The notes under the pieces: generated by a model
Databases searched by the model: none
Told to the model about the DNA's origin: nothing
Seen by the model: the letters and a program-made list of their open reading frames with translations, nothing else
Assembly: GCA_012517375.1 (NCBI GenBank)
Contig: JAAYVC010000018.1
Coordinates: 1 to 33,841, forward strand
Length of the DNA stretch: 33,841 nt
From: a bacterium
GTDB lineage: Bacteria > Hydrothermota > Tepidihabitantia > B3-TA06
Direction of reading: 5' to 3'
Shown: in pieces, positions 236-17,429 of the stretch
How positions within the stretch are numbered: the first letter of the stretch is position 1
Layout of the letters: the number at the start of each line of letters is the position of its first letter
Program-made: the position numbers and the translations under genes

Positions 236-3200
236 GTGCGTAGAGCGTTTGTTTTGTTTACCCTCTTGCTCCCGTTGGTAGTATTCGGTCAGCAAGGAAG
301 CTGGACGGAGACATCGAGAAACGATTTCTCTGACGGCTGGTACGAGCGCGATATATACTGCTCGTACAGAGCGGTATCGTATGAGCCGGACTCAGGAGCC
401 TTGGAGTTCGTTCCCCGTTTCGACTTCACCAACGACGGCTGGATAGACGTTGTCGTTTCGAACAAGCCTACTTCGGCAGGCTGGGATCAGGCTAAAAGAG
501 ACTGGATTCTTGTATACACTGGAGGAGCCGACGGCTTCAACACGCAGCGTTTTTTGCAGTACCCGACCTACAACGGAGCGGAGGTTGACGGAGCCGATCT
601 TGACCTTGACGGCTACAACGACCTGGTCGTCTGTCATTATTATTCTCCTTCAGCCCCGAAGGTCGGAGCGCTGTGTATATACTGGGGCACCGCCGCAGGT
701 CCATCTCCCACTGATACGACCATGCTTCCCCAGAAGCAGCAGACTGAAACCGTATACATTGCGGATGTCAACAAGGACGGATGGCTCGACATCATCGGAG
801 GCGACTACGGCACCCAGCTAGACACGACTTTCAACGACTTTCAGGACTCAATAGCTATCTTCTGGGGAGGACCAAACAGGGCGTACTCGTCCTCAAATGC
901 AACCTTTCTGCCCGCATGGGTAGCTCGCCATAACTTCCAGGTTGCCGATATGAACAAGGACGGCTATTACGATATTGTCGTAGTCAACTATTACCCGACA
1001 TACGGCACGAAAAATTACATCTACTGGGGTTCAGGGACCGGTTTCAGCCCCAGCAACAGGGAAGAGCTGCCTATTCTGCCTTATTTCCCGCACGGCGCGA
1101 ACGTTGCCGACTTCAACAAGGACGGATGGCTCGATTTAGTATTTACGGGAACAGGTTCATCCAATCAGGCTTACGTTTACTATGCAGACCCTGCGAGACC
1201 GAAAAAATACGAAGATCCTTTGATTCTCAATGCGGGTTCTGTGTTCGGAGGCTCAGCTTCGTACGACTACAACGACGACGGCTGGCTCGACTTGGTCTTC
1301 TTCAGGGGTGATGCCCAGGATAGTTCAGGCTTAAGCAAGTTCAAGCCCTGGGTGTATCTGGGAGGACCTGAAGGCTTCTCGGATTCGAGCCGCCTTGAGT
1401 TCGGCGCGCGCAAGTACAACATGTCCGGCGGTTTTCTTACAGATTTGAACAGAGACGGCATAAAGGATCTTCTCGTTCACTCGTGGGTGCTGTTTGATTC
1501 ATCAGGTGTGCTCTGGGGTCCGGATTTTTACACCCATACTCAGCTCTATTGCAACGTTGACCATCACTCGCAGTGCAGGGACATGGGTCACGTTTACACG
1601 AGGGAACAGCGCGAACCCTACATATCGAATGTGTTCGACGCCGGCCAGGCCGTGAACTGGGATGCCTTTATTACTATTGATTCTACTCCCGGGACATCGA
1701 ACATAAACTTCCGAGTCCGCACAGGTCCGACTCCAACACCCGACGCATCATGGACGGACTGGTTTCAGGCGCGCTCCAACGGGTCGATACCCGACTCCGT
1801 AAACGGCAAGCTCGCAATAAACAGGTACTTCCAATACGATGCAGGTCTTCAGTGGAGCTATCTTGCCGATCTGCCCGTGCTCTTCGAAGTAACGACTTAC
1901 TGGGGACCATCCATAACGCTCGAACCCGATTACGACTCGACTACCTATCCCGCAGTCGAGATAACCTACCCAATGACGGTAACGAACGACGGTACGGTAT
2001 CTGACGTTATCGACGTCACGACCGAGGGCACACTTCCGGGATGGACTCTTACGCTTTACACTTCAACGGGTGATGGGATGGAAGACTCGAACTCGGATGG
2101 GATACCGGACGTGGACTCCGTTTCAGGCAGCGGCGGCCAGAGTGTTTTCAGGGTCGGACTTACGCCGCCTTCCGACGCAATGGTTGGCGATGTCGATACA
2201 ACTATTGTTTGGGTTCATTCAACGAACAATGAAACCGTTAGGGATTCGGCTTTTTTAATAACTCACGTGGAACCTATGCCCGCTTTGCTTCTCCTGCCCA
2301 ATCAGGATTCATCGGCGTACAGAGGCCAGACCGTTCGCTACGCCTTGACGCTCACAAACTCCGGCAACGGACCCGATGTTGTCGACATAACAACAGAAGG
2401 GACGCTTGCGGGATGGAATGTGGACAGACGCTCAGGGATTAGCGCTCCATTGACCGACTCGGATGCAGACGGCGTACCTGACCTGGGCTCTGTACCAGGG
2501 GGAGGTGGAATAGCTGGACTCTTAGTGGATGTTACCATTCCGTTCACCGCAACAGAGGGTGAACGCGACACAACATGGGTCGTTGCGCATTCGTCGGTCG
2601 ATACGGCGACAACATCCAGGGCAAGACTCGTCACGACCGTTCTTGTTCCGCCTGACACGGTGCCGGTTGTGGCATTAAGGATTGATCCTGATACGCTGGT
2701 GGAGACGGAGCCCGAAACTCCCGTCATGTGCACGCTGCGCGTTCAGAATCTTGGAAATAAGATAGACACTTTCGATATAGAGGTCGGATTCATTACTGCT
2801 AATGTATGGAATTACCGCCTGCTTGAAATATCCCTTGTCCCGCTGGGAGACCTGAATAGCAACTCGGTTCCGGATGTCGGAGCCCTGGTCCCTGGTTCGG
2901 GGAAAGAGTTCCTGTTTGAGGTTACGCCGCCTGCGGGAGTGGGAAACGATTTTACAGGCACTTCGGCTTTGGGCAATACGGCCATCGCAGTGTTGACTGC
3001 GCGCTCCTCGGTCAGGGACACGGTAACGGAGCGCTCGGAAGACACCATTCTTGTTATTCCGCTATTCAACGTGCATAACTTCCCCAATCCGTTTACCGGT
3101 CCTACGACCTTCTATTTCAGCCTGCCTGAGCCGGGGAAGGTGACTTTGAAGATTTACAACCGTGCCGGAGAATACCTGGCTACGGTTGTCGAGAATAAAC

Positions 3201-3370
3201 CTTATGATAACCCAGGCGTCTATTTCGAACCCTGGGACGGGCTGACGTCCGAGGGCAGAAGACCAGCACCAGGCGTCATGCTGTATCATTTCAATTTTGT
3301 TCCAGATAACGAAGCCCACAGGGCTAGAAATGTAGTTAAGAAAGCGCTCTCGAAAGGAGGGAGCCAATGA
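236..3370 (+). CDS. Large secreted FG-GAP/VCBS repeat protein with C-terminal sorting domain
   Basis: This 1044-residue protein starts with GTG at 236, six bases after a GGAGG at 226-230. Residues 1-19 form a signal peptide (RRAF, hydrophobic run, VFGQ). About residues 50-430 hold at least six FG-GAP/VCBS repeats with Ca-binding loops of the DxNxDGxxD kind (DVNKDGWLD, DMNKDGYYD, DFNKDGWLD, DYNDDGWLD, DLNRDGIKD), as in integrin-like propellers. Residues of about 560-960 hold three related beta-sandwich repeats (each with a VVDITTEGTLAGW-type strand and an SDxDGxPD loop) resembling CARDB/NEW3-type domains. The end (NFPNPF, then VTLKIYNRAGEYL and PAPGVMLY) is a type IX/FlgD-like sorting domain. 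It is likely cell-surface or secreted; ligand and role are unknown. Its stop overlaps the next gene's ATG (ATGA). Confidence 0.9.
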   Translation: MRRAFVLFTLLLPLVVFGQQGSWTETSRNDFSDGWYERDIYCSYRAVSYEPDSGALEFVPRFDFTNDGWIDVVVSNKPTSAGWDQAKRDWILVYTGGADGFNTQRFLQYPTYNGAEVDGADLDLDGYNDLVVCHYYSPSAPKVGALCIYWGTAAGPSPTDTTMLPQKQQTETVYIADVNKDGWLDIIGGDYGTQLDTTFNDFQDSIAIFWGGPNRAYSSSNATFLPAWVARHNFQVADMNKDGYYDIVVVNYYPTYGTKNYIYWGSGTGFSPSNREELPILPYFPHGANVADFNKDGWLDLVFTGTGSSNQAYVYYADPARPKKYEDPLILNAGSVFGGSASYDYNDDGWLDLVFFRGDAQDSSGLSKFKPWVYLGGPEGFSDSSRLEFGARKYNMSGGFLTDLNRDGIKDLLVHSWVLFDSSGVLWGPDFYTHTQLYCNVDHHSQCRDMGHVYTREQREPYISNVFDAGQAVNWDAFITIDSTPGTSNINFRVRTGPTPTPDASWTDWFQARSNGSIPDSVNGKLAINRYFQYDAGLQWSYLADLPVLFEVTTYWGPSITLEPDYDSTTYPAVEITYPMTVTNDGTVSDVIDVTTEGTLPGWTLTLYTSTGDGMEDSNSDGIPDVDSVSGSGGQSVFRVGLTPPSDAMVGDVDTTIVWVHSTNNETVRDSAFLITHVEPMPALLLLPNQDSSAYRGQTVRYALTLTNSGNGPDVVDITTEGTLAGWNVDRRSGISAPLTDSDADGVPDLGSVPGGGGIAGLLVDVTIPFTATEGERDTTWVVAHSSVDTATTSRARLVTTVLVPPDTVPVVALRIDPDTLVETEPETPVMCTLRVQNLGNKIDTFDIEVGFITANVWNYRLLEISLVPLGDLNSNSVPDVGALVPGSGKEFLFEVTPPAGVGNDFTGTSALGNTAIAVLTARSSVRDTVTERSEDTILVIPLFNVHNFPNPFTGPTTFYFSLPEPGKVTLKIYNRAGEYLATVVENKPYDNPGVYFEPWDGLTSEGRRPAPGVMLYHFNFVPDNEAHRARNVVKKALSKGGSQ

Positions 3371-5205
3371 AAAGAATACTCGTTATTCTTGCGATCGCTT
3401 CCGCAGCCTTCGCTCAATTCGGTGGCAACACAGGAACCACCGCTCATCCGCTTTTGAAGATTGGTTTCGGTCCGCGCGCCGCAGCAATGGGCAATGCCTA
3501 CATGGGCATCGCGACCGACATCACCGCCCTCTGGTGGAATCCTGCAGGTCTTAATCAGCTAAACACTTACGAAGCCATGCTCTCCCACCACGAGTGGCTC
3601 AAGGGAATCCGCGACGAGTATGCGGCAATCATCTGGCCGCAGTCGCCTAAAAACACCATAGGGTTTGCCCTTAACTTCTCGAGCGCTTCAGGCATCGAGC
3701 ACTGGGATGAGAACAACCTTCCTGTTTCTGGCGATTCTCTGATAGCGGCCTACGAGGCTTTATTCATGGCCTCCTACACGAGGCAGATTGGAAGCAACAT
3801 CGGCCTTAGCGCAAGCCTGAAGGGACTTTACGAGAACCTTTACGACGCATCAGGTTTCGGCGGAGCCGTAGATCTCTCCTTCCATTGGAAGCCTTCACCC
3901 ATATTCGGTTTGGGCGTCAGCCTTCAGAATCTTGGACCAGGCATGTTCTACGGCGGAGAAAGCTATATGCTTCCGATGCAGGCGCAGGTAGGAGCGGCTC
4001 TTACGTTTGACGATCTGCTTTACGGAGCCAACTTTCTGGCGGATGTCAGGGTCCCCATGGACAACAATATCAGCGTTCATGTTGGAGCGGAGGTCTGGCC
4101 GCTTGAGATTCTTGCCGCCCGCATAGGTTTTCAGTCCGGTCCCCAGACCATAGGCGAGTTGAATATACTTGCAGGTCTTACCGCAGGTGTAGGGCTTGTA
4201 TTAAGCAACTACAGAATCGATTACGCGCTAGCTCCATACGGCCAGCTCGGCCTCACTCACAGACTCGCATTCATAGCCGCCTTCGGCGAACGTCCAAGGT
4301 ACGGCGACGTTATCGTACGCGTAATAGACGCCGAGACGAAAGCGCCCATAGTAGCCCACTTGAATATCGAAGGCCTTGTTAAACTGGATAAGGATACGGA
4401 CGAAAAAGGCGTCTGGGAACGCAAGGGACTTAACCCCGGAAAGATAACGGCTAAGGCGAGCAAGGACGACTACTATCCCTCCACAGGAGAGACACAGGTT
4501 AAGGCAGGTCAGAAGGCGGAACTTGTTGTTGCCTTATCCAAGATTCCGCCCGGAGGCATAGCAGGAAAAGTGTTCGATGTAAAGACCAACGATCCGCTCA
4601 CCGGAACCATAACCTATAAGGGTCCGAACGACATCAAGGGCGAAGTCAAAACCGATGATCAGGGAAACTATACCTTGCCTGCGCTTTACCGCGGAGACTA
4701 TGAGCTTCATGTTCAGCCTGATCATTCGAAATACTTCCCTCAGGATGCATCGGTAACCGTGGAACCGGACAAAAAAGCGCAGAAGGACTTTGCCCTGCTT
4801 CGTGAAAAGGAACTCATCGTCTTCCACAACATTAACTTTGAGACTGGTGAAGCGCGTGTACTACCCGATTTCTATACCGTGCTCGATCAGATAGGCCAGA
4901 TACTAGCCGACAACCCTACTATTCAGGTTGAGTTGGGCGGTCATACCGATTCGAGACCCATAAAGACCCCTGATTTCAAAGATAACCTGGCTCTATCCCA
5001 GGGACGTGTTGACGCAGTGAGACAATATCTGATCGATAAGTTCAACATAGAACCCGCAAGACTCGTGGCAAAAGGATACGGCGATTCGCAGCCTGTTGCG
5101 TCGAATGAAACCGAAGAAGGCATGGCAAAGAACCGCCGTGTTGAGTTCAAGGTTCTGACAGGAATCGAGTACTACCACGAGATCAAAAACATCGAGGAGC
5201 GATAG
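3367..5205 (+). CDS. PorV/UPF0164-like outer-membrane barrel fused to peptidase-regulatory-like repeats and an OmpA domain
   Basis: A strong AGGAGGG lies just before the ATG at 3367, and the start overlaps the previous stop by four bases. The protein has 612 residues. Residues 1-16 are a signal peptide. Residues of about 18-310 match the PorV/PorQ (UPF0164) family, with FGPRAAAMGNAYMGIATD and WWNPAGL, normally an outer-membrane barrel that serves type IX secretion. Residues 315-395 and 395-470 are two carboxypeptidase-regulatory-like beta-sandwiches (VRVIDAETKAPI; GKVFDVKTNDPLTG). Residues of about 475-600 are an OmpA C-terminal domain with GHTDS, NLALSQGRVDAVRQYL and a late NRRVEF, the residues that bind diaminopimelate in peptidoglycan. 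The fusion would tie an outer-membrane barrel to the cell wall. The neighbour with a sorting signal may be its client; that link is inference. Confidence 0.88.
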   Translation: MKRILVILAIASAAFAQFGGNTGTTAHPLLKIGFGPRAAAMGNAYMGIATDITALWWNPAGLNQLNTYEAMLSHHEWLKGIRDEYAAIIWPQSPKNTIGFALNFSSASGIEHWDENNLPVSGDSLIAAYEALFMASYTRQIGSNIGLSASLKGLYENLYDASGFGGAVDLSFHWKPSPIFGLGVSLQNLGPGMFYGGESYMLPMQAQVGAALTFDDLLYGANFLADVRVPMDNNISVHVGAEVWPLEILAARIGFQSGPQTIGELNILAGLTAGVGLVLSNYRIDYALAPYGQLGLTHRLAFIAAFGERPRYGDVIVRVIDAETKAPIVAHLNIEGLVKLDKDTDEKGVWERKGLNPGKITAKASKDDYYPSTGETQVKAGQKAELVVALSKIPPGGIAGKVFDVKTNDPLTGTITYKGPNDIKGEVKTDDQGNYTLPALYRGDYELHVQPDHSKYFPQDASVTVEPDKKAQKDFALLREKELIVFHNINFETGEARVLPDFYTVLDQIGQILADNPTIQVELGGHTDSRPIKTPDFKDNLALSQGRVDAVRQYLIDKFNIEPARLVAKGYGDSQPVASNETEEGMAKNRRVEFKVLTGIEYYHEIKNIEER

Positions 5206-5265
5206 AGACATCCTGGATATCAGATAATTCCAAGCGCCGGATGCTTGCTATCCTATCAGGATTTT

Positions 5266-5300
5266 ATCCCCCGTGGTTTAGAACGCGGGGGATATTTTTT
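5266..5300 (+). terminator. Rho-independent terminator after the PorV-OmpA gene
   Basis: ATCCCCCG pairs with CGGGGGAT across a 12-base loop (stem arms 5266-5273 and 5286-5293) and is followed by ATTTTTT. It closes the exported-protein operon. A second GC-rich block and T run follow directly (CCCCGCGGGCTTTTTTT), which may act as a back-up. Confidence 0.8.
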
Positions 5301-5350
5301 CTCCCCGCGGGCTTTTTTTCGCACACTGTAGCCCTAAGGCTCTTGCCGTA

Positions 5351-5378
5351 TTGACAATATGTTTCTTGTATATATCCT
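5351..5378 (+). promoter_or_regulatory. Promoter of the VOC gene
   Basis: TTGACA (5351-5356), 16 bases, TATCCT (5373-5378). It lies about 58 bases before the TTG start of the VOC gene and has the same 16-base spacer as the other promoters of the window. Confidence 0.6.
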
Positions 5379-5436
5379 TGCTAAAACAGTCTGAAGGGAT
5401 TGTTCGATTACAGCAAACGGGATTAAAGGAGAGACA

Positions 5437-6495
5437 TTGATAAACGCAATTCAACATATAGGATTCGGGGTGAATGACAGGGACCGTTCATGGTCTTTCT
5501 ATCGAAAGCTCGGGTTCGACGTTCCCATGAGTCTTAATCAAAGCAGGGCGTCCCGAATGGAACCCCTGGTGGGAGGAGACTATGAGCGCAAGGTAGTGAT
5601 TGCCGCCAACCTTCTGGGCGGCGCAACCTTAGAGATTTTTCAGTACCTTTCTACAGAGCCAAAGCCCTACCCAGTTGACTGGAACTGGGGAAACCCCGGA
5701 ATGTCCGCCACGGCATTAAAAGTCCGTGACTTGAACAAAGCCCTTGATTTGTTCGGCGATATGCCGGAGTCGATTGTTTCACGACCGACGGATTGGCCGG
5801 CAAACCCTTCATGGAAAGCCGCACTCGTCAAGGATCCCGATAACCTTCTTATCTATTTAGTTGAGATACCGGGAATGCCTTATTCGCTTAAGCTCAACGG
5901 CAACTTCATCGGCGGTATTGTTTTTTCCACGGTGGCGGTAAGCGATATGGAGCGCTCTCTCGAGTTCTACCGCAACGTCCTCGATTATAAGGACATCGTA
6001 TACGACTGGCAGGGCTACGACCCCATGCTATCCTCCATCCCTGGAGGAAACCGCAGGATGCGCAGGGTCATGCTTAAGGATTCCAGGCCTTCGACATCAT
6101 TCTACAGCTTCTACCTCGACAGAGGTATGATTGAACTTGTGGAAGTCGAGGGCGACAAGGGCAAGCATATCTACAACGCAAGACGCTGGGGCGATGTGGG
6201 ACAGATGGAGATATGCTTCGACGTACACGATATAAAAGCCACGTTCGATGAGTTGAAAAAGCGCGGCGCCGAACCCCTGCTCGAGCCTAACACAGAGGAT
6301 TTCGATATGGGTCACGGATCGACCGCTTTCTTTGCCTACTTCAAGGATCCTGACGGCACCATGATTGAACTCGCTGAGGCGACAAAACTCAAAATAACGA
6401 ACTCTATAGGAATAGATTTGAAAAAGCGCAAGCCGGGGAAAGCCTTGCCCAAATGGCTTATGAAGATGTCGCGCCATAAGAGATACAAGGATTGA
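5437..6495 (+). CDS. Two-domain VOC (glyoxalase/dioxygenase superfamily) protein
   Basis: The start is TTG at 5437, preceded by AAAGGAGAG, and the protein has 352 residues. Two vicinal-oxygen-chelate modules can be seen. The first begins IQHIGFGVNDRDRSWSFYRKLGF (residues 4-26). The second begins VAVSDMERSLEFYRNVLDY (about 168-186) and ends in FKDPDGTMIELAEA (about 308-321), the usual last strand with the metal-binding Glu. H6, the E in the first-module LEIFQY strand, and E319 are plausible metal ligands. VOC proteins include glyoxalases, extradiol dioxygenases and methylmalonyl-CoA epimerases; the substrate cannot be told here. The gene stands alone between its own promoter and a terminator and faces the sulfonolipid-type operon, so a shared pathway is not shown. 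Confidence 0.8.
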   Translation: MINAIQHIGFGVNDRDRSWSFYRKLGFDVPMSLNQSRASRMEPLVGGDYERKVVIAANLLGGATLEIFQYLSTEPKPYPVDWNWGNPGMSATALKVRDLNKALDLFGDMPESIVSRPTDWPANPSWKAALVKDPDNLLIYLVEIPGMPYSLKLNGNFIGGIVFSTVAVSDMERSLEFYRNVLDYKDIVYDWQGYDPMLSSIPGGNRRMRRVMLKDSRPSTSFYSFYLDRGMIELVEVEGDKGKHIYNARRWGDVGQMEICFDVHDIKATFDELKKRGAEPLLEPNTEDFDMGHGSTAFFAYFKDPDGTMIELAEATKLKITNSIGIDLKKRKPGKALPKWLMKMSRHKRYKD

Positions 6496-6512
6496 ATCCT
6501 TATTAAGAACAG

Positions 6513-6540
6513 ACTGAAGCCGCCTTCAGGCGGCTTCAGT
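6513..6540. terminator. Bidirectional terminator between the VOC gene and the alpha-oxoamine synthase operon
   Basis: A perfect 12-base stem (ACTGAAGCCGCC / GGCGGCTTCAGT) with a TTCA loop is followed by TTTTATTT on the + strand. It lies between two convergent genes and so can stop both. Confidence 0.85.
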
Positions 6541-6569
6541 TTTATTTCGACTTATAAGGAAAACGAACT

Positions 6570-7778
6570 CTATAGTTCCAGCTTCATCTCATCACGTACC
6601 TCGCGAAAAGCCTTTATTGTCAGTGCTATGTCCTCGTCGGTATGTGCGGCTGTCGGAATCATCCTGCAAAGAACTACACCCTTGGGTACGACAGGGTACA
6701 TTACACCTGAGATGAAAACGCCCTTTTCGTCGCGCATCTTGTGTATGAAGCGCATACCGGTCTCCACATCGTTTGCGGGTACGTATACAGGCGTTACGGG
6801 AGACTGCGTGTTGCCGAGGTTGTAGCCAAGCTCCTTGAGACCGGACTGAAGCTTGCGTGTATTTTCCCAGAGCTTGTCGAACAAACCTGGTTCGGATTCG
6901 ATTATATCCAATGTTTTGATAAGCACTTCAACAACGACCATGGGAAGCGACTTCGCGAAAATCTGGGTCCGGGCGTTGTAGCGGATATATTCAATTACCT
7001 CATCGGTTGACGAACTGAACCCGCCTATGGCTGCAAACGACTTTGCGAACGTTCCGAAGTATATGTCGATATCGTCCTGTACGCCGAAGTGAGAGCCCGT
7101 TCCCCTGCCTTGCTTGCCCATTACGCCGAAGCCGTGAGCGTCATCCACGTAGAGCCTTGCCCCGTACTTATTCTTGAGCTTCACAACGCCGGGAAGGTCG
7201 GCAAGATCGCCCGTCATTCCGTACACTCCCTCGGTCATTACAAGGACCCCTCCCTCCCTGTTCCGGGTGGCCCTTTTCAATGCCCGCTCAAGACTCTCCA
7301 TGCTGTTATGCTGAAACGGGATAAACTGACGCGTTGAAAATGCCGCATCCATCATTGAAGCATGTGCGAGCTTGTCTATTACTATTACATCATCCTTACC
7401 TATCATCGATGTAACCGTCCCGAGAACGCCGAGGTAACCGTAGTTGAAAAGAATCGCACTCGGCTTTCCGGAATATCGGGCAAGACGCTCCTCGAGCGCT
7501 ATGTGGCGTTCGGTGTTTCCGGTCATGAATCTTGCACCCATGGGCGCGCCTACCCCCCATTTCGCTGCGGCTTCTTTAGCCGTCTCGATTAGTTCTGGCC
7601 TCTGGACAAGACCAAGGTAGTTGTTTATCGCCCACTGAATAACTGGCTTGCCGCTGAACGTCATTCTCGGTCCGGGCATCCCGTCAAGCACCGGTAGGGC
7701 GAAGTAGCGGTCTCGCTTTAGCCTGAAATACGAAAAATAACCGCCTTCCTCACCGCATTTGGAGAACAAATCTTTCAT
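6570..7778 (-). CDS. Alpha-oxoamine synthase, probable cysteate fatty-acyltransferase (3-ketocapnine synthase)
   Basis: A 402-residue PLP enzyme of the alpha-oxoamine synthase family (8-amino-7-oxononanoate synthase, KBL, serine palmitoyltransferase). The family condenses an amino acid with an acyl-CoA or acyl-ACP and releases CO2. Visible features: NNYLGL near 52-57, GAPMGARFMTGN (78-89), His139 that stacks on PLP, DDAHGFG (212-218) and the Schiff-base lysine K246 in TFAKSFAAIGG. The middle and end (VQDDIDIYFGTFAKS, RTQIFAKSLPM, QSPVTPVYV, IPTAAHT) agree, from memory, with the Bacteroidota subfamily that includes the Flavobacterium cysteate fatty-acyltransferase of capnine synthesis. The gene lies 20 bases after a cysteate synthase, which supplies the expected amino acid. 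That context is the main reason to prefer cysteate over serine or glycine. Specificity is inferred. GAAAGGA lies about 15 bases before the ATG, rather far. Confidence 0.75.
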   Translation of the reverse strand: MKDLFSKCGEEGGYFSYFRLKRDRYFALPVLDGMPGPRMTFSGKPVIQWAINNYLGLVQRPELIETAKEAAAKWGVGAPMGARFMTGNTERHIALEERLARYSGKPSAILFNYGYLGVLGTVTSMIGKDDVIVIDKLAHASMMDAAFSTRQFIPFQHNSMESLERALKRATRNREGGVLVMTEGVYGMTGDLADLPGVVKLKNKYGARLYVDDAHGFGVMGKQGRGTGSHFGVQDDIDIYFGTFAKSFAAIGGFSSSTDEVIEYIRYNARTQIFAKSLPMVVVEVLIKTLDIIESEPGLFDKLWENTRKLQSGLKELGYNLGNTQSPVTPVYVPANDVETGMRFIHKMRDEKGVFISGVMYPVVPKGVVLCRMIPTAAHTDEDIALTIKAFREVRDEMKLEL

Positions 7779-7798
7779 AGTTTTGTTATGGGTTCCTT

Positions 7799-9079
7799 TC
7801 AGAAAAGTCTTTCAATTGTTTCTTGCGTGATCTCATCGAGTCTCAGGGTAATGTGAGGCTCGAGCTTGTGTATTTTATAGTCTTCATAAAGCCTCTTCTT
7901 GCCGCCACCCGTGATGTTGAGAAGCACTACCTCTTTCTTGTCGATGGAGCCGGATTCGAACGCTTGTTTTAAAGCACCTAGAGCTACGGCTGCGGCAGGG
8001 TCCAGGTCTATGCCCTCCAGCTCTTCGAAGCGGCCGCCTGAAGCAGATGCTTCCTCGTTCGTTACGGAATACATAAGACCGTTTGTTGCCGTAAGGGCGT
8101 CGAATACGCCTCCGCGGATTCCGTATGGCGGCTTGCGGTTGGAGAGAACGTGTGCGGATATCTGCGAGACCTTCTCTTTGAGAGCTGATTCTTCAATCTC
8201 GGGAAGTATTCTTGAGCCTTTTTTCCATGATTCCGTCATCGGCGTAAAGGGGTAATTCTGAGCAAGATGAAGCTTCATTTTCGCACTGCCGTATCGACCG
8301 TCGCGTACGAGTCTTTCCGAAGCTTCCCAGGCCGCTATTCCGCCGGTTCCCGAGCCGACTGCCTGGAAATAGTGGTCGGGAATCCTGCCTATTTCGAGAG
8401 CCGCAGCAAGAAGTGCGGTTCCCATTCCATCCCTGCGCGCGACGTTCTTCGCCCCTCCTTCGGGTATATACCCCGGAAGTTTGGATATCATATCTGCAAC
8501 TTGAATCGCGTCGAGATAGTCGGCACCGCCCGTCACAGCAACTAGTCTTACGGAACTCGAAAAAGCCCTGGTGGACCAGATGCAGTCGAGTCCGGCTTCG
8601 TGAACAACGAGTAAGAGAGGGATTTCGTTCACGGAGCACAGCTCGGCGAACGCCCTTGCGGTATTACCTGCCGATGCGACAACCAGGGTCTGAGATGATT
8701 CCTCAAGCCGCGAACAAACAGGCGGGGCTTCAAGCTCCTTGAAAGTGCAGGTCTTCATGTTTGCACCGCGTTCGGGCCAGTAGCCGGAGAAAACTATCCA
8801 GAGATTCTCGAGTCCGACTTCAAGCGCTAACGCTTCGCTCTTGAAAACAACGGGGATGGAATCCGTTTTAATGTAGCGTCTGAGTGGCAGCCAGTCCTTG
8901 AATATGAACATTCCGTTCGAACTTCCTTTTATTGACAGCCGGACATTACGGTAATCAGCCCTGAGCAGGGACGGCGAATGCCCCTCATCGCAGGAAAGAA
9001 GGTGATTGTCCTTCTCGAATACCTTGCCGCACTCGAGGCATTCGAGTCTATACGATGTAGGCTTGAAATCCGCGTTCAT
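7799..9079 (-). CDS. Cysteate synthase (threonine-synthase-like PLP enzyme)
   Basis: The 426-residue protein is a fold-type II PLP enzyme. It agrees with the cysteate synthase family (described in Methanosarcina for coenzyme M synthesis), which makes L-cysteate from O-phosphoserine and sulfite. Seen: an N-terminal Cys motif LECLECG with a further Cys at 30, FKSEALALEVGLENL, GYWPERGANMKTCTFKELEA with the likely Schiff-base lysine K114, a phosphate loop VVASAGNTARAFA (133-145), GGAKNVARRDGMG, and AVGSGTGGIAAWEA. Ordinary threonine synthases lack the WPERGANMKTC and SGTGGIAAWEA signatures. The gene starts 6 bases after the YeiH-type transporter gene and leads into the alpha-oxoamine synthase, so cysteate is probably used for a sulfonolipid base. 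No coenzyme M genes are seen nearby. Confidence 0.85.
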   Translation of the reverse strand: MNADFKPTSYRLECLECGKVFEKDNHLLSCDEGHSPSLLRADYRNVRLSIKGSSNGMFIFKDWLPLRRYIKTDSIPVVFKSEALALEVGLENLWIVFSGYWPERGANMKTCTFKELEAPPVCSRLEESSQTLVVASAGNTARAFAELCSVNEIPLLLVVHEAGLDCIWSTRAFSSSVRLVAVTGGADYLDAIQVADMISKLPGYIPEGGAKNVARRDGMGTALLAAALEIGRIPDHYFQAVGSGTGGIAAWEASERLVRDGRYGSAKMKLHLAQNYPFTPMTESWKKGSRILPEIEESALKEKVSQISAHVLSNRKPPYGIRGGVFDALTATNGLMYSVTNEEASASGGRFEELEGIDLDPAAAVALGALKQAFESGSIDKKEVVLLNITGGGKKRLYEDYKIHKLEPHITLRLDEITQETIERLF

Positions 9080-9085
9080 TTTTTC

Positions 9086-10183
9086 TTATGTTTTAAGAGC
9101 AAGAAGCCCCCCGAGAAGGAGAACCATAACCAGCGTAACGAGAGCGACGCTCGTTTCGGCGGCTATCCCGACAACAAAAGGCTTCCAGCCCGTTTTAGCC
9201 ATATCCGAGAATCTCGTTCTAAGGCCTACGCCGGCGAACGTGAACAGAAAAGCCCAGCCCTCCAGCGATTTTATGGATGCAAGCATTGCAGACTTCTGTC
9301 CTCCGAACACCCCGACCGAAGCGAGCACGGCGAACAACACGAAACCGAGAACGAACTTGGGAAACTTCTGCCAGAGGAACTTGCCCTTGTGGTCTATCTG
9401 CTTGGCCATGCCCTTTGACGCATAGTAGATGGCGAATCCGAGGATAACGAAACCCATAAGCGCATTGCGGCACATCTTTGTTATGGTTGCCGCCTCTAGC
9501 GCGCCTGACGCGCTTTTTACCTGATCATAAAGCTGCCCGGTCGCTATCGCCTCTGCGGTGTTGTCGACGGCAAGACCTGCCCAGACCCCGAACAGGCTTT
9601 GATTCATGTGCAGGAGTGCGCCGATGAGAGGATAGACTATCATTGCGGCGGCGCCGAAGATGAGAATTACGGCAATCGCATAGTTTGCCTCTTCCCTCTT
9701 CGCATTTATTGCGCCTGTGGTCCCGATTATCGCAGATACGCCGCAGATGCCGACCCCGACGGACAGAAGAGAACCTATCCTTTCGTCAAGCTTGAACAGC
9801 CTCGCTATAAGGGTAACAAAGAAGATTGAGAAGAGTATCTCTACAACGACCATACCGAGACCGAGTCCGCCCAGTTTTAGCAAGTCCGATATGAGTATCC
9901 TCGCGCCAAGGAAAACTATGCCAAGCTTCAAAAGAAACTCGTAGGCCTCAAGACCGGGAGCAAGGAAATCCGCCAGGCCCTTGATTCGTTCTATCAGCAG
10001 GTTGTTGATAAGCATACCGATAACAATTGCAATGATTACGTTCGCTCCGAGAATAGCCTTAATCCATTCTACGTGTACGACTTTCTTGAAAAGCTCGGAG
10101 AGGTAAAGCGAAACAAGACCGATTACAATTAAAAGCAACAAACCGGATATGAAACCCCATACGCTTTTCTTTTTTTCGCCCAT
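9086..10183 (-). CDS. YeiH-family (UPF0324) putative sulfate/sulfite transporter
   Basis: The 365-residue protein is very hydrophobic, with about ten membrane segments and little soluble sequence. Typical of the YeiH/UPF0324 family are the internal GIVFLGARIL segment, GVGICGVSAIIG near the middle, VDNTAEAIATGQ, and TKMCRNALMG. Members near sulfonate-degradation genes have been proposed to export sulfate or sulfite. Here the gene is second in an operon with cysteate synthase, whose co-substrate is sulfite. A role in sulfite or sulfate supply, or in preventing sulfite build-up, fits; the direction of transport is not known. Its ATG lies one base after the stop of the small membrane protein. Confidence 0.8.
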   Translation of the reverse strand: MGEKKKSVWGFISGLLLLIVIGLVSLYLSELFKKVVHVEWIKAILGANVIIAIVIGMLINNLLIERIKGLADFLAPGLEAYEFLLKLGIVFLGARILISDLLKLGGLGLGMVVVEILFSIFFVTLIARLFKLDERIGSLLSVGVGICGVSAIIGTTGAINAKREEANYAIAVILIFGAAAMIVYPLIGALLHMNQSLFGVWAGLAVDNTAEAIATGQLYDQVKSASGALEAATITKMCRNALMGFVILGFAIYYASKGMAKQIDHKGKFLWQKFPKFVLGFVLFAVLASVGVFGGQKSAMLASIKSLEGWAFLFTFAGVGLRTRFSDMAKTGWKPFVVGIAAETSVALVTLVMVLLLGGLLALKT

Positions 10184-10184
10184 T

Positions 10185-10373
10185 TCAGCCCCCCGGGAGC
10201 ATGAATTTTAGAAGCGAGCTGAATGGTATCTCTGGTGTTCCGCCCAGCCATTGCCAGATAAGTAATCCCAGAGTCAGGACGCAAGCGACAATAAGAGCCC
10301 ACCAATCCAGATGCATCTTGACGGACTTTCTTTCATCCGCCGCCCTTTCGATTTCGTTGTTTTTAGAAGCCAT
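10185..10373 (-). CDS. Small single-pass membrane protein, first gene of the sulfonolipid-type operon
   Basis: I place the start at the ATG at 10373, since GGAGGA lies five bases before it; longer versions lack a site and read into the promoter. The product has 62 residues: a charged N-terminus rich in Glu, Arg and Lys, then one clear membrane helix (WWALIVACVLTLGLLIWQWLG) and a short C-terminal tail. No family is recognised. It sits one base before the transporter gene. It may be an extra helix or accessory subunit of that transporter, but this is inference from position. Confidence 0.65.
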   Translation of the reverse strand: MASKNNEIERAADERKSVKMHLDWWALIVACVLTLGLLIWQWLGGTPEIPFSSLLKFMLPGG

Positions 10374-10433
10374 GTATCCTCCGGTTTTGCGATTTTCAGC
10401 CGCATCAATTCGACTACAAGTCATTAAGTGCAA

Positions 10434-10461
10434 ATAGTACAATTTTTTTCCAGGATGTCAA
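10434..10461 (-). promoter_or_regulatory. Promoter of the sulfonolipid-type operon
   Basis: Read on the - strand: TTGACA (10461-10456), 16 bases, TACTAT (10439-10434). It lies about 60 bases before the small membrane protein and is the only good promoter seen for the four-gene operon. Confidence 0.65.
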
Positions 10462-10584: not shown

Positions 10585-11208
10585 TCATTTCTGGATGCTT
10601 TTGACCATCCTGTAGACCCCGGCAAACCCGAACCGTCTTTTCAGCCACGGCGATTCCAGGACATCGGCAATGGAGTATCCCAGGCTCTTGTAGAGGCTTA
10701 TGGCAGGCCGGTTGTTCTTGCTTACGCCAAGGCTTATGCTTGCGTATTCTTTCATGTTGGCTACGTCTTCCGCCTCCTTCATGAGAAGCCTGCCTATGCC
10801 CTGTCCCCTGAACGAAGACACCACTGCGACCTGAGCTACGAACAGTTCGTTTTGAGACGGTTCGGGGTCCATCAATCCCTGGCGCAGATATAATGGAAGA
10901 CGATAGAATAAGAAAAGAGGCCCTGCAAGACGAACCAGTTCGGCGCCCGTTTGCGCATAAGCGTTGCGGATTATATCTCTGTCGTGCAGAACGAGAATGC
11001 CTGCAACCTTTCCTGATTTTTCTGCCATTCTTGCGTATTGAAAGCTCGAAATATTCCCCCGCCTTGCGAATAGTCTTGATATTAATGACGTAGCTCTTGC
11101 CTCTGAGCCGTAAGCAAGGTTGAATTGTATCGGACCGGTGGAATATATTAAGGGTGCAGCCGCTGCGGCGTCATCGGGCTTTGCCTTTCTGATTTTAACG
11201 CCATCCAT
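10585..11208 (-). CDS. GNAT-family N-acetyltransferase
   Basis: A 207-residue protein of the GCN5-related acetyltransferase fold, which moves an acetyl group from acetyl-CoA to an amine. Motif A is clear: FVAQVAVVSSFRGQGIGRLLM (the R-G-Q-G-I-G loop binds the CoA pyrophosphate), followed by ISLGVSKNNRPAISLYKSLGY, the classic motif B region. The N-terminus (VKIRKAKPDDAAAAAPLI) is the usual first strand and helix. The substrate cannot be told. The gene lies alone, with a hairpin between it and the lipoprotein gene before it, and no good promoter of its own was found. Confidence 0.85.
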   Translation of the reverse strand: MDGVKIRKAKPDDAAAAAPLIYSTGPIQFNLAYGSEARATSLISRLFARRGNISSFQYARMAEKSGKVAGILVLHDRDIIRNAYAQTGAELVRLAGPLFLFYRLPLYLRQGLMDPEPSQNELFVAQVAVVSSFRGQGIGRLLMKEAEDVANMKEYASISLGVSKNNRPAISLYKSLGYSIADVLESPWLKRRFGFAGVYRMVKSIQK

Positions 11209-11288: not shown

Positions 11289-12116
11289 TTAAAGCTTCTT
11301 TAAGCTTACGTTCCCGTTCGAGCTTTCGAGCTCGATGTTTCCTGAGCCGTCGCCCATTGTTCCTTCAAAGAGATTGTCCTCCATCTTCGTGACCTGAACG
11401 TGAAGGTCGGAATCGACGCTCAAATCGCCGTTCGACGTCTGCATTCGAATAGCGGCGCCTACAGAATCGGGAATAAAAAGGGTAAGCTTGCCGTTGGATG
11501 TTTTGAGGTTGCAGGACCCGTCCGTCTTCGGCATCGTGACCCTGGCGTAGATCTCGCCGTTGGAAGTCACACCCTTTGCGTCTCCCTTATGATTATCTAT
11601 TGTTATTGGCCCGTTAGAAGTGCTAAGATCAGCTTTTCCTGACGTATTGTTCGTGTTTATCTCGCCGTTCGATGTGCTCAGAAGCAGACCATTCTGGTTG
11701 CCTTCGACCGTTATCTTGCCGTTGGAGGTTTCGTAATCGACATAGAGGGATTCGGGAAGACTGATGGTAGCATTGCAGCCGTAGCTCCGGCCGGTAATCT
11801 GGGGGATATCAACATAAATCCTTAGAATCTTTGCAGTGGTATCTTCCGTTACATGCACCACAACATCCGGAAGATGGTTTTTTGCATCGACGGACGTAAT
11901 GCCCGTAGCCCAGCGCTCAAGGGTTACTTTTATGACTGTATCGCCCTGGACAACCGTTGACTCTATCTCTCCGTTTTCCGTTTCTATCTGAAGCTGGCTG
12001 TAGTTTGATGCCTTATAAGACTCGGTATCCTTTTCGTATTCCTTAAAAGCGTAGTTCGGCAGGCATGAAAGGAAAAAAACGCCTGAAAAGACGGTCAGAA
12101 CCAATAATTTCTTCAA
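11289..12116 (-). CDS. DUF4097-like beta-repeat lipoprotein
   Basis: A 275-residue protein with a lipoprotein signal: KK, hydrophobic run and a lipobox FFLSC with the acylated Cys at about 18. From residue 45 on it is a chain of short beta strands in which the turn TSNG or a variant (TENGE, TSNGK, TSNGE, TSNGP, ESSNGN) recurs about every 20 residues, at least eight times. This is the pattern of DUF4097/DUF2807-type right-handed beta helices, often called putative adhesins or bactofilin-like scaffolds. It is likely anchored to the outer or inner membrane facing the periplasm. The function is unknown. It has its own strong promoter and a good AGGAGG site. Confidence 0.8.
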   Translation of the reverse strand: MKKLLVLTVFSGVFFLSCLPNYAFKEYEKDTESYKASNYSQLQIETENGEIESTVVQGDTVIKVTLERWATGITSVDAKNHLPDVVVHVTEDTTAKILRIYVDIPQITGRSYGCNATISLPESLYVDYETSNGKITVEGNQNGLLLSTSNGEINTNNTSGKADLSTSNGPITIDNHKGDAKGVTSNGEIYARVTMPKTDGSCNLKTSNGKLTLFIPDSVGAAIRMQTSNGDLSVDSDLHVQVTKMEDNLFEGTMGDGSGNIELESSNGNVSLKKL

Positions 12117-12138
12117 GATTCCTCCTTTATTATCGGAT

Positions 12139-12166
12139 AGTATAGCATTATCGATTGTCGTGTCAA
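12139..12166 (-). promoter_or_regulatory. Promoter of the DUF4097-like lipoprotein gene
   Basis: On the - strand: TTGACA (12166-12161), 16 bases, TATACT (12144-12139), near consensus and only about 22 bases before the ATG. Confidence 0.75.
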
Positions 12167-12196
12167 TAGACTAATCTAGAATCGCTTAAAGGATTC

Positions 12197-13504
12197 TTAC
12201 CGCGCTAAGACAAAATATCTGAGCCATATGTATATGCTTGAAAGGATGAGGGAAATGATAGTTGTAGGCATTCCCTTTTTAGCGAACGCCCAGAAGCTGA
12301 TTTTATGCCCCGATTTGTTCGATATGCCCGCGATAACCATGTTTGCGGCAGCGCCGATAAGGGTTCCGTTGCCTCCGAGGCAAGCGCCTAGCGCAAGCGC
12401 CCACCATAGGGGTTCTATGGGCTGCACCCCCTGCGATGCAAGCCCCCTTATGACGGGAAGCATGGCAATAACGAAAGGCACCGAGGATGTAACGAACGTT
12501 AAAAGAGCCGAGCCCCACAGGATTATCATGGAAAGGAGAAAAACCTTGCCCATGTTTGCCGCAATGATTATTCTCAGAAGCTCTTTGATTACTCCCGTCG
12601 ATTCCAGCCCCGAAATCATTATGAACATGCCGATAAAGAAGAAAAGCGTGTGCCAGTCGATCTCTGCCAGTATGGTTTCAATAGGGTCTGTTTTCTTTTC
12701 TCTCGGCGGCAGCTGCGATGCAAGGAGAAGAAGCCCGGCGCCTCCCAAAGCTATCGTCGCAGGCATCAAATGTAGCGCCTCGTGAAGAACGAACATGACG
12801 ATTACTATCCCCAATATTGCCAAGGACTTCCATACAAGGTACTTATCGCGTATCGCTTTACGGGCATTGAGATCGTTAAGGGCGGCTACGTTCGGGGTGC
12901 GTGAACGAAGCTCTTTTCCGAAGAGAAAAGTGGAACTCAACAAAAACACCACAAGCACGAGCATCACGATTGGCGTAAGATGGATTATGAAGTCGTTGAA
13001 GCCGAGTTTAGCGGCGCTTCCGATAATGATGTTGGGCGGATCGCCTATCAGCGTCGCCGTTCCTCCGATGTTTGAGGCAAGCGCCTCGGAGATCAAAAAG
13101 GGAAGGGGGTCGACGCGCAATGTCCCGGCAATAAGAAGCGTAATGGGCGCAATTAAAAGTACAGTCGTAACGTTGTCCAGAAATGCCGATATGACCGCGG
13201 TGAGAAGAGAAAGAACAATCAATAAAAGCAACGGCCGTCCCTTGGAAAGCTTTGCTGAGGAAATGGCGAGCCACTCAAAAAGGCCCGAACGCTTTATGAT
13301 GTTTACGATGATCATCATGCCTGCGAGGAGGAAGATGACGTTCAAGTCTATGTGAAGGAAGGCGTCGGCTTGATCGATGGACCCCACTATCAGCATTAAG
13401 GCTGCGCCCACAAGTGCTACGACGGTGCGGTCGATTTTTTCCGTGGCTATAGCTATATAGGACGCTACGAATATAGCAATGGCAACCCAGGCTTGCGTGG
13501 TCAT
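12197..13504 (-). CDS. ArsB/NhaD-type (ion transporter superfamily) permease
   Basis: A 435-residue integral membrane protein with about eleven to twelve helices. The two inverted halves each show a family re-entrant motif: first half FLDNVTTVLLIAP and ASNIGGTATLIGDPPN, second half VTSSVPFVIAMLPVI and GACLGGNGTLIGAAANM. These are the marks of the ArsB/NhaD and P-protein branch of the ion transporter superfamily, which carries Na+, arsenite or anions. No ars genes are near, so arsenite export is unlikely to be its main job; Na+/H+ exchange or anion transport is possible. It follows the EIIA-CBS gene by four bases, so it is likely controlled together with, and perhaps by, that protein. Confidence 0.8.
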   Translation of the reverse strand: MTTQAWVAIAIFVASYIAIATEKIDRTVVALVGAALMLIVGSIDQADAFLHIDLNVIFLLAGMMIIVNIIKRSGLFEWLAISSAKLSKGRPLLLLIVLSLLTAVISAFLDNVTTVLLIAPITLLIAGTLRVDPLPFLISEALASNIGGTATLIGDPPNIIIGSAAKLGFNDFIIHLTPIVMLVLVVFLLSSTFLFGKELRSRTPNVAALNDLNARKAIRDKYLVWKSLAILGIVIVMFVLHEALHLMPATIALGGAGLLLLASQLPPREKKTDPIETILAEIDWHTLFFFIGMFIMISGLESTGVIKELLRIIIAANMGKVFLLSMIILWGSALLTFVTSSVPFVIAMLPVIRGLASQGVQPIEPLWWALALGACLGGNGTLIGAAANMVIAGISNKSGHKISFWAFAKKGMPTTIISLILSSIYIWLRYFVLAR

Positions 13505-13508
13505 GATA

Positions 13509-14411
13509 TCAGGTACGCATCACCTTTGTTATGATGTCTCTCAGCGAAACCACGCCGAAATACTTTCCCTCTTTAGTCACGACGAGCGCGTTCTCCGAGC
13601 GGTGAAGGAGAACGCTCGTTATTTCTATTATCGATGCGCTGTCGTCTGCGGCGGCAAAATCCCGAACCATGACCGAGGAAACAGGCATCTTGTCCTCCTC
13701 CTGAAGAAACCTGTCGAAGGGTTCGAACTCAGAGATGAACCGAAGGTCGCCTATCATGCGGGCGTATTCGGGCATTGCTGCCTGAAGAAGATCGTAGCAT
13801 CGCAGGATTCCGACCACTTCGTTTTCGGCATCAAGCACGGGCAAAGTCAGGGTTTCGTTGCGGAAGAAGAGATCTGCAGCTTCCTTGAGATTCATATCCT
13901 CCCGCAGAGTCTCAACCCTGCGAGCGATGTCACCCGCGTAAAGACGTTCAGTAACCAGAAGGTTGGTTTTTTTAATAGCGTTCAGCACCTCGGAGGGACT
14001 CGAGGCCGAAGCAAGCTCAACGTGGATTTCCTCGCTTAAAGCGAGCCGCGCTAGAACTCCGAGGGTCTTTAGATACAGTTTGGATACCTTCTTCTGTTCA
14101 AGAAGCAGGAAGATAATCCTTAAAGGTTCACCGTCCGGTGTGTGATCGCCAAGACCGTCCGGAAAGATGCCTATGCCGACTACAAGTTCGGAGATTTCGT
14201 TCGAGCGGGCATGCGGCAGTGCAATCCCTCTCCCTGCAATGGTTGAAACGAGCTTCTCGCGCTCAAGAACCTCGTCGATTATGGCTTTCTGGCTCTGTTC
14301 GGATCTATCGGCCAGCACACGAGGAACCAAAAGCCTTATGGCTTCGGAGAGGTTTGTCGCTTTAAGCCCGCAGAAGACTCGCTCGGGTCTTATTAGATGT
14401 ATAAGTTTCAT
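13509..14411 (-). CDS. PTS EIIA (fructose/nitrogen type) - CBS pair regulatory protein
   Basis: The protein has 300 residues and two parts. Residues 1-150 are a PTS EIIA type 2 domain with the phospho-acceptor His67 in GIALPHAR. Residues of about 165-300 are a CBS pair (ETLTLPVLDAENEVVGIL; ENALVVTKEGKYFGVVSLRDI), which often binds adenine nucleotides. EIIA domains take phosphate from HPr-like carriers. Because the fused partner is a CBS pair and the next gene is a secondary permease, the likely role is to regulate that permease by energy or nitrogen state, not to import sugar. No EIIB, EIIC, HPr or EI gene is present in the window. The ATG is only about 8 bases from the expected transcription start. 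Confidence 0.82.
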   Translation of the reverse strand: MKLIHLIRPERVFCGLKATNLSEAIRLLVPRVLADRSEQSQKAIIDEVLEREKLVSTIAGRGIALPHARSNEISELVVGIGIFPDGLGDHTPDGEPLRIIFLLLEQKKVSKLYLKTLGVLARLALSEEIHVELASASSPSEVLNAIKKTNLLVTERLYAGDIARRVETLREDMNLKEAADLFFRNETLTLPVLDAENEVVGILRCYDLLQAAMPEYARMIGDLRFISEFEPFDRFLQEEDKMPVSSVMVRDFAAADDSASIIEITSVLLHRSENALVVTKEGKYFGVVSLRDIITKVMRT

Positions 14412-15234: not shown

Positions 15235-16527
15235 TTACAAGCCGCGAACCTTCACCAGGTGAGTGGCGCAGGAGATGCAGGGATCGTAAGCGCGCGCTAT
15301 CATCTCGAGCTTGAGTTCTATATTCTTTGTATCCTTTTCCTTTACGAGATTATCGGCGCCGATGCGGATGTGCTCTTCGAGCATATCGAGGAACTGCGCT
15401 GTAGGAGTAATGATATCGGCGCGGACAACGCGACCTTCGGCAACCTCGTAGTGGTGGTAGAGCGTTCCGCGTGGCGCCTCGACTGCTCCTGAACCGGCGC
15501 CCTTGTCTCTTGCCGGCTTGACAATCGACGGATTCTCTTCTATGGCGATGAGCTTATCGATTATCTTTGGAACCTCTTCAAGAGCCCATACGGTCTCTAT
15601 TGCCTGCGCGACGTTGTTGTACATGGGGTTGCGTATCCACGAGAGATTGTAGCAGCGGCGGAAATGCTCGCCCGCTGCGCCGTCAAGACGCTCGCCAAGA
15701 AGATTGAAGCGCGCAAGGGCGCCCACGAAATAAGGCTTGTCGTTGTACAAAGAGCGCTTCGCCATCGAATGCGGAACAACACGCTCGTTCGTCAGCTTGC
15801 GGTAGTCCCATACGTTGAATTCGTGACCGTCGGAAATCATTATCTTGTCGCCCGCCCAGCCGTAGCGGTCGTGCTCGGGTTTCGTGCACATGAAGGTCAT
15901 TCCTTCCTCCATGTAAGTGGGCTGGCGCAGATTGCGGAGTATCTCGACGCCGCGTTCCGCATCAGGGATAAGGGATTCTGCTTCGTACTTGAAGCGCAGA
16001 AGGTCAGTCTTGGATGGGTACTTGCCGAATCCGCCGATTACTGGATTCTCTCCGTGAATGGAGCGCGCGGCAGTAAGCTCCATGAGCTTGACCCCGAACT
16101 TCTTGACGCGCAATCCTGCCTGAACGTCCTCTAGATAATCCGGAACCATGTGAACGGCTGAGGGGTATCCGAGGTAGTCGGGAAGCGCAAGAAGGAATAC
16201 GTGCAGGGCGTTGGATTCAATCATCTCGCCGCAGTGCATGAGATCTCTCAAGAGCTGCGCTTTCGGCGGTATCTCTATCTCGAGAGCCTTTTCCATCGCC
16301 CGCAGCGCGGCATAGCGGTGAGATAGCGTGCATATGGCGCAAGTGCGGCACGTGAGGCTGACAACCTCTGAGGGGATGCGTCCGACGGCTATGGTCTCAA
16401 GAAGTCTCGGGCCTTCGTGGACGTCAACGGTAACCGAGGAGAGCTTGCCCTCCTTGAAGTCGACCGTTATCCCTCCGTGGCCTTCAACCCTGGCGAGCGA
16501 TTCAATTTTGACTCTTTCAATGCTCAT
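15235..16527 (-). CDS. hydA: [NiFe] hydrogenase large subunit, group 3b-like (sulfhydrogenase alpha)
   Basis: A 430-residue catalytic subunit that splits or makes H2 at the NiFe(CN)2CO centre. The N-terminal ligand motif is CRTCAICTLSH, with Cys63 and Cys66 as the expected Ni ligands. The C-terminal motif is DPCISCATH with Cys417 and Cys420. A seven-residue tail (LVKVRGL) follows His423 and should be clipped by a maturation protease during Ni insertion; no protease gene is visible in the window. The order beta-gamma-delta-alpha and the diaphorase-type partners place it with group 3b cytosolic NADP-linked enzymes such as the Pyrococcus sulfhydrogenases, some of which also reduce sulfur. It is the last gene of its operon. 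AGGAGCGAAAT lies before the ATG. Confidence 0.9.
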   Translation of the reverse strand: MSIERVKIESLARVEGHGGITVDFKEGKLSSVTVDVHEGPRLLETIAVGRIPSEVVSLTCRTCAICTLSHRYAALRAMEKALEIEIPPKAQLLRDLMHCGEMIESNALHVFLLALPDYLGYPSAVHMVPDYLEDVQAGLRVKKFGVKLMELTAARSIHGENPVIGGFGKYPSKTDLLRFKYEAESLIPDAERGVEILRNLRQPTYMEEGMTFMCTKPEHDRYGWAGDKIMISDGHEFNVWDYRKLTNERVVPHSMAKRSLYNDKPYFVGALARFNLLGERLDGAAGEHFRRCYNLSWIRNPMYNNVAQAIETVWALEEVPKIIDKLIAIEENPSIVKPARDKGAGSGAVEAPRGTLYHHYEVAEGRVVRADIITPTAQFLDMLEEHIRIGADNLVKEKDTKNIELKLEMIARAYDPCISCATHLVKVRGL

Positions 16528-16536
16528 ATTTCGCTC

Positions 16537-17421
16537 CTACTTCTTGGCCTGCTTGGCCTGGACGGTCTTTGCCGGTTTCTTGGTTTCTGCTTCTTCAGCC
16601 GCCGAGTGCGCTTCCTGCGGCTTTTTCTTTTCCGGTTGAGGAGTCTTTATGCCTAAAAGGTCTCCGAATCTTCGAACCATCGAAGCTCCGCCGAACAGCC
16701 TGAGCTTGTTCAAAATATCGGCCTCGGAGAATTTCTTCTCCTTCAAGAGGTTGATTTCTGAAGCTACGTTGGCTTCGTCCGTCGGACCCCAGCAGCCGAT
16801 GCACGGCAGGTTGTGATTCGGGCAGCGCGAGTTGCATCCGCCAGCCGTTACTGGACCAAGGCAAAGCTCGCCCTTAAGAAGCAGGCACTCGTTCTCGTTC
16901 CACTTGCATTCGGCGCAAACGGGGAATTTTGTGAGCTCTATAGGCATTCCCTGCACGAGCCGCGTTACGGCGTAAAAGAACTGATATTTGTCAATGGGAC
17001 ATCCGGGAAGATAGTAGTCGACCTTGACGTATTCGTCCAAGGGATGAGCCTCGAATGGCTTGGCAACCGTATGCTTGACATCGCCGTAGACCTTCCTGAA
17101 GCGCTCGGACCAGTCGTCGCAGCCAAGCCGAGCTGCCTGGGGACCGCCGAAGCAGGCGCAGGAACCGAGTGCCACGATTATTTTGGCGCGCTTGCGGATG
17201 CCGGTAAGCATCTCGAGATGGTGATCGGTGGAGATGGAGCCTTCTATGAAAGCGACGTCTATCTCCTCGTCATCATGGGTTTCTCTTGAAGCCATAAGGA
17301 AGGAGCGAACGTCAACGGCGCCGAAGATATCCAGAAGCTCGTCCTCGCAATGTATTACCGCCAGCTGATCGCCGGCGCAACCTGTAAATCCGTAGAATGC
17401 AACTTTAGGTTTATTTGCCAT
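16537..17421 (-). CDS. hydD: [NiFe] hydrogenase small subunit, group 3b-like (sulfhydrogenase delta)
   Basis: The iron-sulfur subunit that passes electrons from the NiFe site to the flavin subunit. I use the ATG at 17421 (294 residues): AGGAG lies five bases before it, and the gamma stop is nearby; the ATG at 17424 is also possible. Cys residues for the proximal cluster are in FTGCAGDQ and GSCACFGG, and more clusters are bound by VCAECKWNENEC, ELCLGP and the CNSRCPNHNLPCIGCWGP stretch. No Tat signal is present, so the enzyme is cytoplasmic. The last 35 residues or so are rich in Lys, Ala and Glu (PEKKKPQEAHSAAEEAE and so on), an added low-complexity tail that is unusual for the family. Confidence 0.88.
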   Translation of the reverse strand: MANKPKVAFYGFTGCAGDQLAVIHCEDELLDIFGAVDVRSFLMASRETHDDEEIDVAFIEGSISTDHHLEMLTGIRKRAKIIVALGSCACFGGPQAARLGCDDWSERFRKVYGDVKHTVAKPFEAHPLDEYVKVDYYLPGCPIDKYQFFYAVTRLVQGMPIELTKFPVCAECKWNENECLLLKGELCLGPVTAGGCNSRCPNHNLPCIGCWGPTDEANVASEINLLKEKKFSEADILNKLRLFGGASMVRRFGDLLGIKTPQPEKKKPQEAHSAAEEAETKKPAKTVQAKQAKK

Positions 17422-17429
17422 CATCGCTC

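Follow-up and report, generated by a model that had tools for sequence, protein, structure and literature searches.

The stretch of DNA analyzed here (the window; 33,841 nucleotides) belongs to a MAG of 2.54 Mb and 96.9% completeness that is assigned to candidate phylum WOR-3, for which Caldifarciminota is the current NCBI name. Four minus-strand open reading frames, confirmed where a preliminary description of the locus had placed them, follow one another with intergenic gaps of 1, 6 and 20 bases. In operon order, they encode a small one-helix membrane protein (10185–10442; 85 amino acids, hydrophobic stretch at residues 43–69), an accessory YeiH-like membrane transporter recognized by the PF03601 profile (9086–10183; 365 amino acids), an archaeal/Alistipes-type cysteate synthase (CysS; 7799–9079, 426 amino acids) and a cysteate fatty-acyltransferase (CFAT, also SulA or CapB; 6570–7778, 402 amino acids). 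The product of the first gene matched no family in NCBIfam/Pfam-type profile searches.

A promoter-like site on the same strand (10434–10461; TTGACA-16-TACTAT, 10 of 12 matches in a consensus scan) precedes the operon, and its first base, 10461, coincides with the upper limit that the preliminary description had set. The TTG start listed for the small gene (10442) lies inside the −10 box, so that translation probably begins further inside the frame, at an ATG near 10373. At the other end, a terminator stem of 12 pairs (6513–6540) separates the CFAT gene from a convergent plus-strand gene for a two-domain VOC (glyoxalase-fold) protein (5437–6495; PF00903, 85 bits). Promoter- and terminator-type matches occur at only about twice the shuffled expectation. 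Upstream of the operon, again on the minus strand, lies the gene for a GNAT acyltransferase (10585–11208; PF00583, 52 bits).

The remainder of the window harbors a four-gene NiFe hydrogenase locus (15235–19324; large subunit, small subunit, FAD/NAD subunit and 4Fe-4S subunit) resembling cytoplasmic sulfhydrogenases, and a 1,044-residue FG-GAP repeat protein followed by an end-overlapping OmpA-domain protein with CarboxypepD_reg repeats (236–5205). A set comprising a DUF4097 protein, a CitMHS/ArsB-type permease and a PTS-EIIA plus CBS protein (11289–14411) lies upstream of the GNAT gene and is kept in genera g1 and g2 of the family, not in g3. Mis-binning of the contig was rejected, as the other genomes of the family show the same gene order.

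Identity of the two enzymes

The 7799–9079 protein, previously described as cysteate synthase-like, is a cysteate synthase by sequence: it scores 522.2 bits against the NCBIfam equivalog TIGR03844 (cut-off 324.9), covering profile positions 1–397 of 398, and threonine synthase models reach at most 71 bits. The motifs WPERGANMKTC and SGTGGIAAWEA are both present, and every aligned cysteate synthase has K114. Its sole strong relative of solved structure is the cysteate synthase 9k3c (433 bits, 49% identity), with threonine synthases at 39 bits or below. No grouping with true threonine synthases was seen; instead, 29 cysteate synthases are split from those of WOR-3 by a long branch with 100/100 support, and that identity was rejected for this protein. 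Within the WOR-3 set, the window CysS clusters with a sequence from a MAG named Aminicenantes (92/82), and this grouping suggests transfer of the gene between the two lineages.

For the 6570–7778 protein, the best PDB relatives are 28eh, named a cysteate-C-fatty acyltransferase (402 bits), and 7u7h, SulA of Alistipes (380 bits); serine palmitoyltransferase (SPT) trails at 275 bits. In a tree of 38 alpha-oxoamine synthases (AOS), it falls with both into a 19-member CFAT clade (100/100), as the preliminary description had expected of its subfamily, and not with SPT, KBL or BioF. The lysine cited there for this AOS, K246, is invariant in the alignment. A second lysine distinguishes the clade. In SulA, Lys281 replaces the alanine of SPT, and the K281A variant is inactive (PMC9304779); the equivalent residue, within FAKSL or YAKSL, occurs in 19 of 19 CFATs and in none of the 19 other AOS rows, SPT and KBL included. 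FAKSLPM of the window protein aligns to YAKSLPM of 7u7h, where SPT reads FSASM.

A KBL, BioF or SPT identity was rejected on the basis of the tree and because the window genome encodes, elsewhere, a KBL of its own (TIGR01822, 601 bits; cut-off 493) as well as an SPT-like protein, whose 544 bits against NF047600 fall short of the cut-off of 640. The gene for the latter overlaps that of a 370-residue GNAT-like protein (locus L177 on contig G000:C64, 1855–4148), and the two are possibly a sphingolipid pair alongside the sulfonolipid genes. Within Bacteroidota, sphingolipids and sulfonolipids have been thought possibly to be mutually exclusive (PMC10191378).

Routine annotation had been predicted to miss both enzymes. 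This holds for CFAT, which passes no curated NCBIfam cut-off and has no CFAT model among the matches from that library, and fails for CysS, which exceeds its equivalog threshold by almost 200 bits. Chance similarity is excluded by E values of 7e-157 (CysS) and 2.6e-119 (CFAT) to curated or solved members, and by the recurrence of the pair in family genomes and in Spirochaetota.

Sulfonolipids are sphingolipid-like fats with a sulfonate head, and CysS and CFAT start their synthesis. By the reactions known from characterized relatives, CysS would convert O-phosphoserine and sulfite to L-cysteate, and CFAT would join cysteate to a fatty acyl thioester, giving 3-ketocapnine and CO2. The comparisons support the core of the earlier proposal, which placed a cysteate synthase and a CFAT together in an operon from an uncultivated lineage. 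Steps one and two are very likely carried out by this operon, and we are confident, as far as homology can tell, that it would make the base of a sulfonolipid.

Sulfite supply and conserved neighbors

The preliminary description had assigned all four genes to the feeding of sulfite into a sulfonolipid base. The CysS–CFAT pair supports this, whereas conservation does not extend to YeiH and the small membrane gene: only 2 of the 8 family genomes, namely that of the window and G058, have PF03601. The conserved neighbors are instead the VOC and GNAT genes, both outside the originally delimited span, and throughout the family the gene order is GNAT–(YeiH)–CysS–CFAT, with the VOC gene convergent to it.

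The transporter scores 229.8 bits against PF03601 (cut-off 24.5) and stays below the cut-off of TIGR00698, the YeiH sulfate exporter model (123.1 versus 232.6 bits); possibly it transports sulfite or sulfate. That it does so, importing or exporting, and that the pathway includes it as a fixed component, is a serious possibility to which we nevertheless give somewhat less than even weight. It is gene 2 of the operon; in G058 (locus L123), it lies between GNAT and CysS and is overlapped by GNAT by 8 bases; and in a Spirochaetota locus (L222, 2478–5275), a PF03601 relative is convergent with cysteate synthase at a distance of 149 bases. On the other hand, YeiH is missing from six of the eight family genomes that keep CysS, and the surroundings of the other named cysteate synthase loci showed none.

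Strong PF01507 proteins are present in six of the eight family genomes. The window genome holds no strong PAPS reductase (best PF01507 match 24 bits), which favors a part for YeiH in this organism, and PF01747 ATP sulfurylase was not found in it. The organism may thus depend on environmental sulfite, possibly taken up via YeiH. G058, however, has both YeiH and a PAPS reductase, so that there is no clean replacement of one by the other. For the pathway as we prefer to read it, sulfite would come from PAPS reductase in most family members and through YeiH-linked transport in the window genome. In the Spirochaetota locus L043, from a MAG named Spirochaetales, a PAPS reductase gene (1383–2090; NF002537 over cut-off) stands between VOC and CysS; its product is 70–72% identical to proteins of four family genomes, compared with 53–56% for the neighboring CysS, and this high identity suggests either recent transfer or strong constraint.

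Full-length VOC homologs occur in exactly the 8 of 147 WOR-3 genomes that have cysteate synthase. Co-inheritance within one family is by itself weak evidence; the link gains from three Spirochaetota loci in which VOC adjoins CysS–CFAT (L043, L086 and L227). VOC is also encoded in another Spirochaetes genome (G151) and in two of five Bacteroidota genomes (Mariniphaga and Marinilabilia), where its neighbor is an SDR. It is absent from both Aminicenantes genomes and from Moorena, and is thus dispensable for the reactions of CysS and CFAT. A second copy, 66% identical to that of the window, lies outside the cluster in G057 and G058 (locus L174 on contig G058:C8, 5532–6629). Sequence searches with VOC gave only weak methylmalonyl-CoA epimerase matches, and its AlphaFold model is poor (pLDDT 42). 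By its gene context, VOC is a candidate for a sulfonolipid-associated enzyme; it could act in tailoring, or in a metal-dependent or regulatory role.

GNAT lies upstream in 6 of 6 family loci where that flank is intact. Around residues 88–112 it has a conserved insert, hydrophobic and basic, that would suit a lipid substrate; Foldseek searches with the model (pLDDT 71) returned general GNATs only, with no lipid acyltransferase signature. Its position, and the fact that the pathway is expected to include N-acylation, make GNAT a candidate capnine N-acyltransferase. The full proposal, in which the cluster fills gaps in sulfonolipid biology, with VOC as a previously unrecognized sulfonolipid enzyme common to WOR-3, Spirochaetota and some Bacteroidota and GNAT as the enzyme that N-acylates capnine in WOR-3, is put forward tentatively, and we would not expect it to hold in its entirety.

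An SDR, the class to which 3-ketocapnine reductases belong, would reduce 3-ketocapnine to capnine, its gene lying elsewhere in the genome. With the VOC-adjacent SDR of Mariniphaga as query, the window genome yielded many weak SDRs, none of them assignable as the 3-ketocapnine reductase; the best is 36% identical over part of the candidate. In an Aminicenantes MAG (G149; locus L158, 5161–7210), CFAT and an SDR gene (5161–5931) stand in tandem on one strand, the SDR downstream with 31 bases in between. Its product scores 146 bits for 3-ketodihydrosphingosine reductase, against a model cut-off of 400, and is a good candidate for the 3-ketocapnine reductase. At that locus, a plus-strand CFAT frame (5882–7240) was rejected as antisense; the real gene is 5963–7210 on the minus strand.

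The reductase and N-acyltransferase in the window genome are candidates at most, and the GNAT fold resembles small-molecule and protein acetyltransferases, all of which would fit a pathway that makes 3-ketocapnine and ends, without N-acylation, in free capnine or a secreted sulfonate signal. We consider such an end point unlikely, given the conserved GNAT neighbor and the N-acylated products already known from Bacteroidota (PMC10191378). Reduction followed by N-acylation, perhaps by the upstream GNAT, would lead instead to a sulfonolipid, the reading we favor.

Distribution across phyla

Cysteate synthase is present in all eight genomes of the window's family. In six it is in one piece over the TIGR03844 cut-off, and in two it is truncated by a contig end; the 139 other WOR-3 genomes contain no match over that cut-off. 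Close relatives turned up, in a genome scan, in three Spirochaetes, three Moorena records and two MAGs named Aminicenantes, as well as in many Bacteroidota; MAG names such as Aminicenantes and Spirochaetales are the depositors' own. In the phylum of one MAG named Spirochaetales (G150), 9 of 392 sampled genomes pass the cut-off. CFAT accompanies cysteate synthase in all 12 further genomes tested except that of the cyanobacterium Moorena, and in the tree, CFATs from WOR-3, Spirochaetota and Aminicenantes group together as the sister (91/89) of the Bacteroidota CFATs. The two genes are adjacent in the WOR-3 family and in three Spirochaetota loci. Other Spirochaetota loci carry CysS with no CFAT nearby (L223, L224 and L047), with an MscS channel gene upstream of CysS in the first two and a LysR regulator downstream in the last two.

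In three loci from Moorena MAGs (L044–L046), CysS lies near a PLP decarboxylase and a TauD–methyltransferase fusion, and CFAT was not found in the single Moorena genome searched (G153); this locus probably serves a taurine-type or other sulfonate pathway and not a lipid. Such a setting, and the one of 14 control genomes that passes the TIGR03844 cut-off, with a protein that we take to be the coenzyme M enzyme of Methanosarcina, are what could be said for CysS of the window feeding coenzyme M, taurine or free cysteate next to an unrelated serine palmitoyltransferase or KBL, an idea made highly improbable by the AOS gene 20 bases downstream, its place in the CFAT clade with the CFAT lysine, and the separate KBL and SPT-like proteins of the same genome.

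Relation to known pathways

The enzymes of the sulfonolipid pathway proposed here and their reactions are known; new are the phyla, the adjacency of CFAT to an archaeal-type CysS, and the VOC and GNAT genes that accompany the pair. Alistipes finegoldii (SulA, 7u7h) and other Bacteroidota share with the WOR-3 family a CFAT with the Lys281 equivalent and the archaeal-type cysteate synthase, whose use by Alistipes and Odoribacter has been reported (PMC10191378); the window CFAT is 45–49% identical to five Bacteroidota CFATs. By contrast, no CFAT was present in the CysS flanks (up to 8 kb) of the sampled Bacteroidota loci, and it is the WOR-3 pair, in a different phylum, that is adjacent and has GNAT and VOC as neighbors. 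The published reductase genes of Bacteroidota are likewise not near cys or cfat (PMC11211663).

The CapA–CapB–CapC system of Capnocytophaga and Ornithobacterium performs the same first two reactions as those assigned to the WOR-3 pair. The accessions of CapA and CapB are consecutive (ACU93374 and ACU93375; PMC12927429), so that adjacency as such has a probable precedent. CapA, however, has been described as no more than a distant relative of the archaeal-type cysteate synthase (PMC10191378), the type that WOR-3 uses. The bacterial sphingolipid pathway (SPT, ceramide reductase and bCerS) relies on the same AOS chemistry as CFAT; SPT differs in the alanine at the position of the CFAT lysine, and the WOR-3 genome encodes its SPT-like AOS, beside the GNAT-like protein, separately from CFAT.

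In 2023, a review described bacterial sulfonolipid synthesis as apparently limited to Bacteroidota (PMC10191378). A survey in 2024 then listed candidate genes in 13 phyla at loose cut-offs (E 1e-20; PMC11211663), and a wider spread was thus not wholly unsuspected. In view of this survey and of the CapA/CapB neighbors, the advance is moderate. The compact cluster nonetheless supplies candidates (VOC, GNAT and SDR) for steps whose genes, in Bacteroidota, lie scattered or have yet to be assigned. With the two committed enzymes, diagnostic lysine included, encoded in WOR-3, Spirochaetota and MAGs named Aminicenantes, sulfonolipids detected in sediments or microbiomes need not mean Bacteroidota, and lipids active on choanoflagellates or the immune system may have more sources than that phylum.
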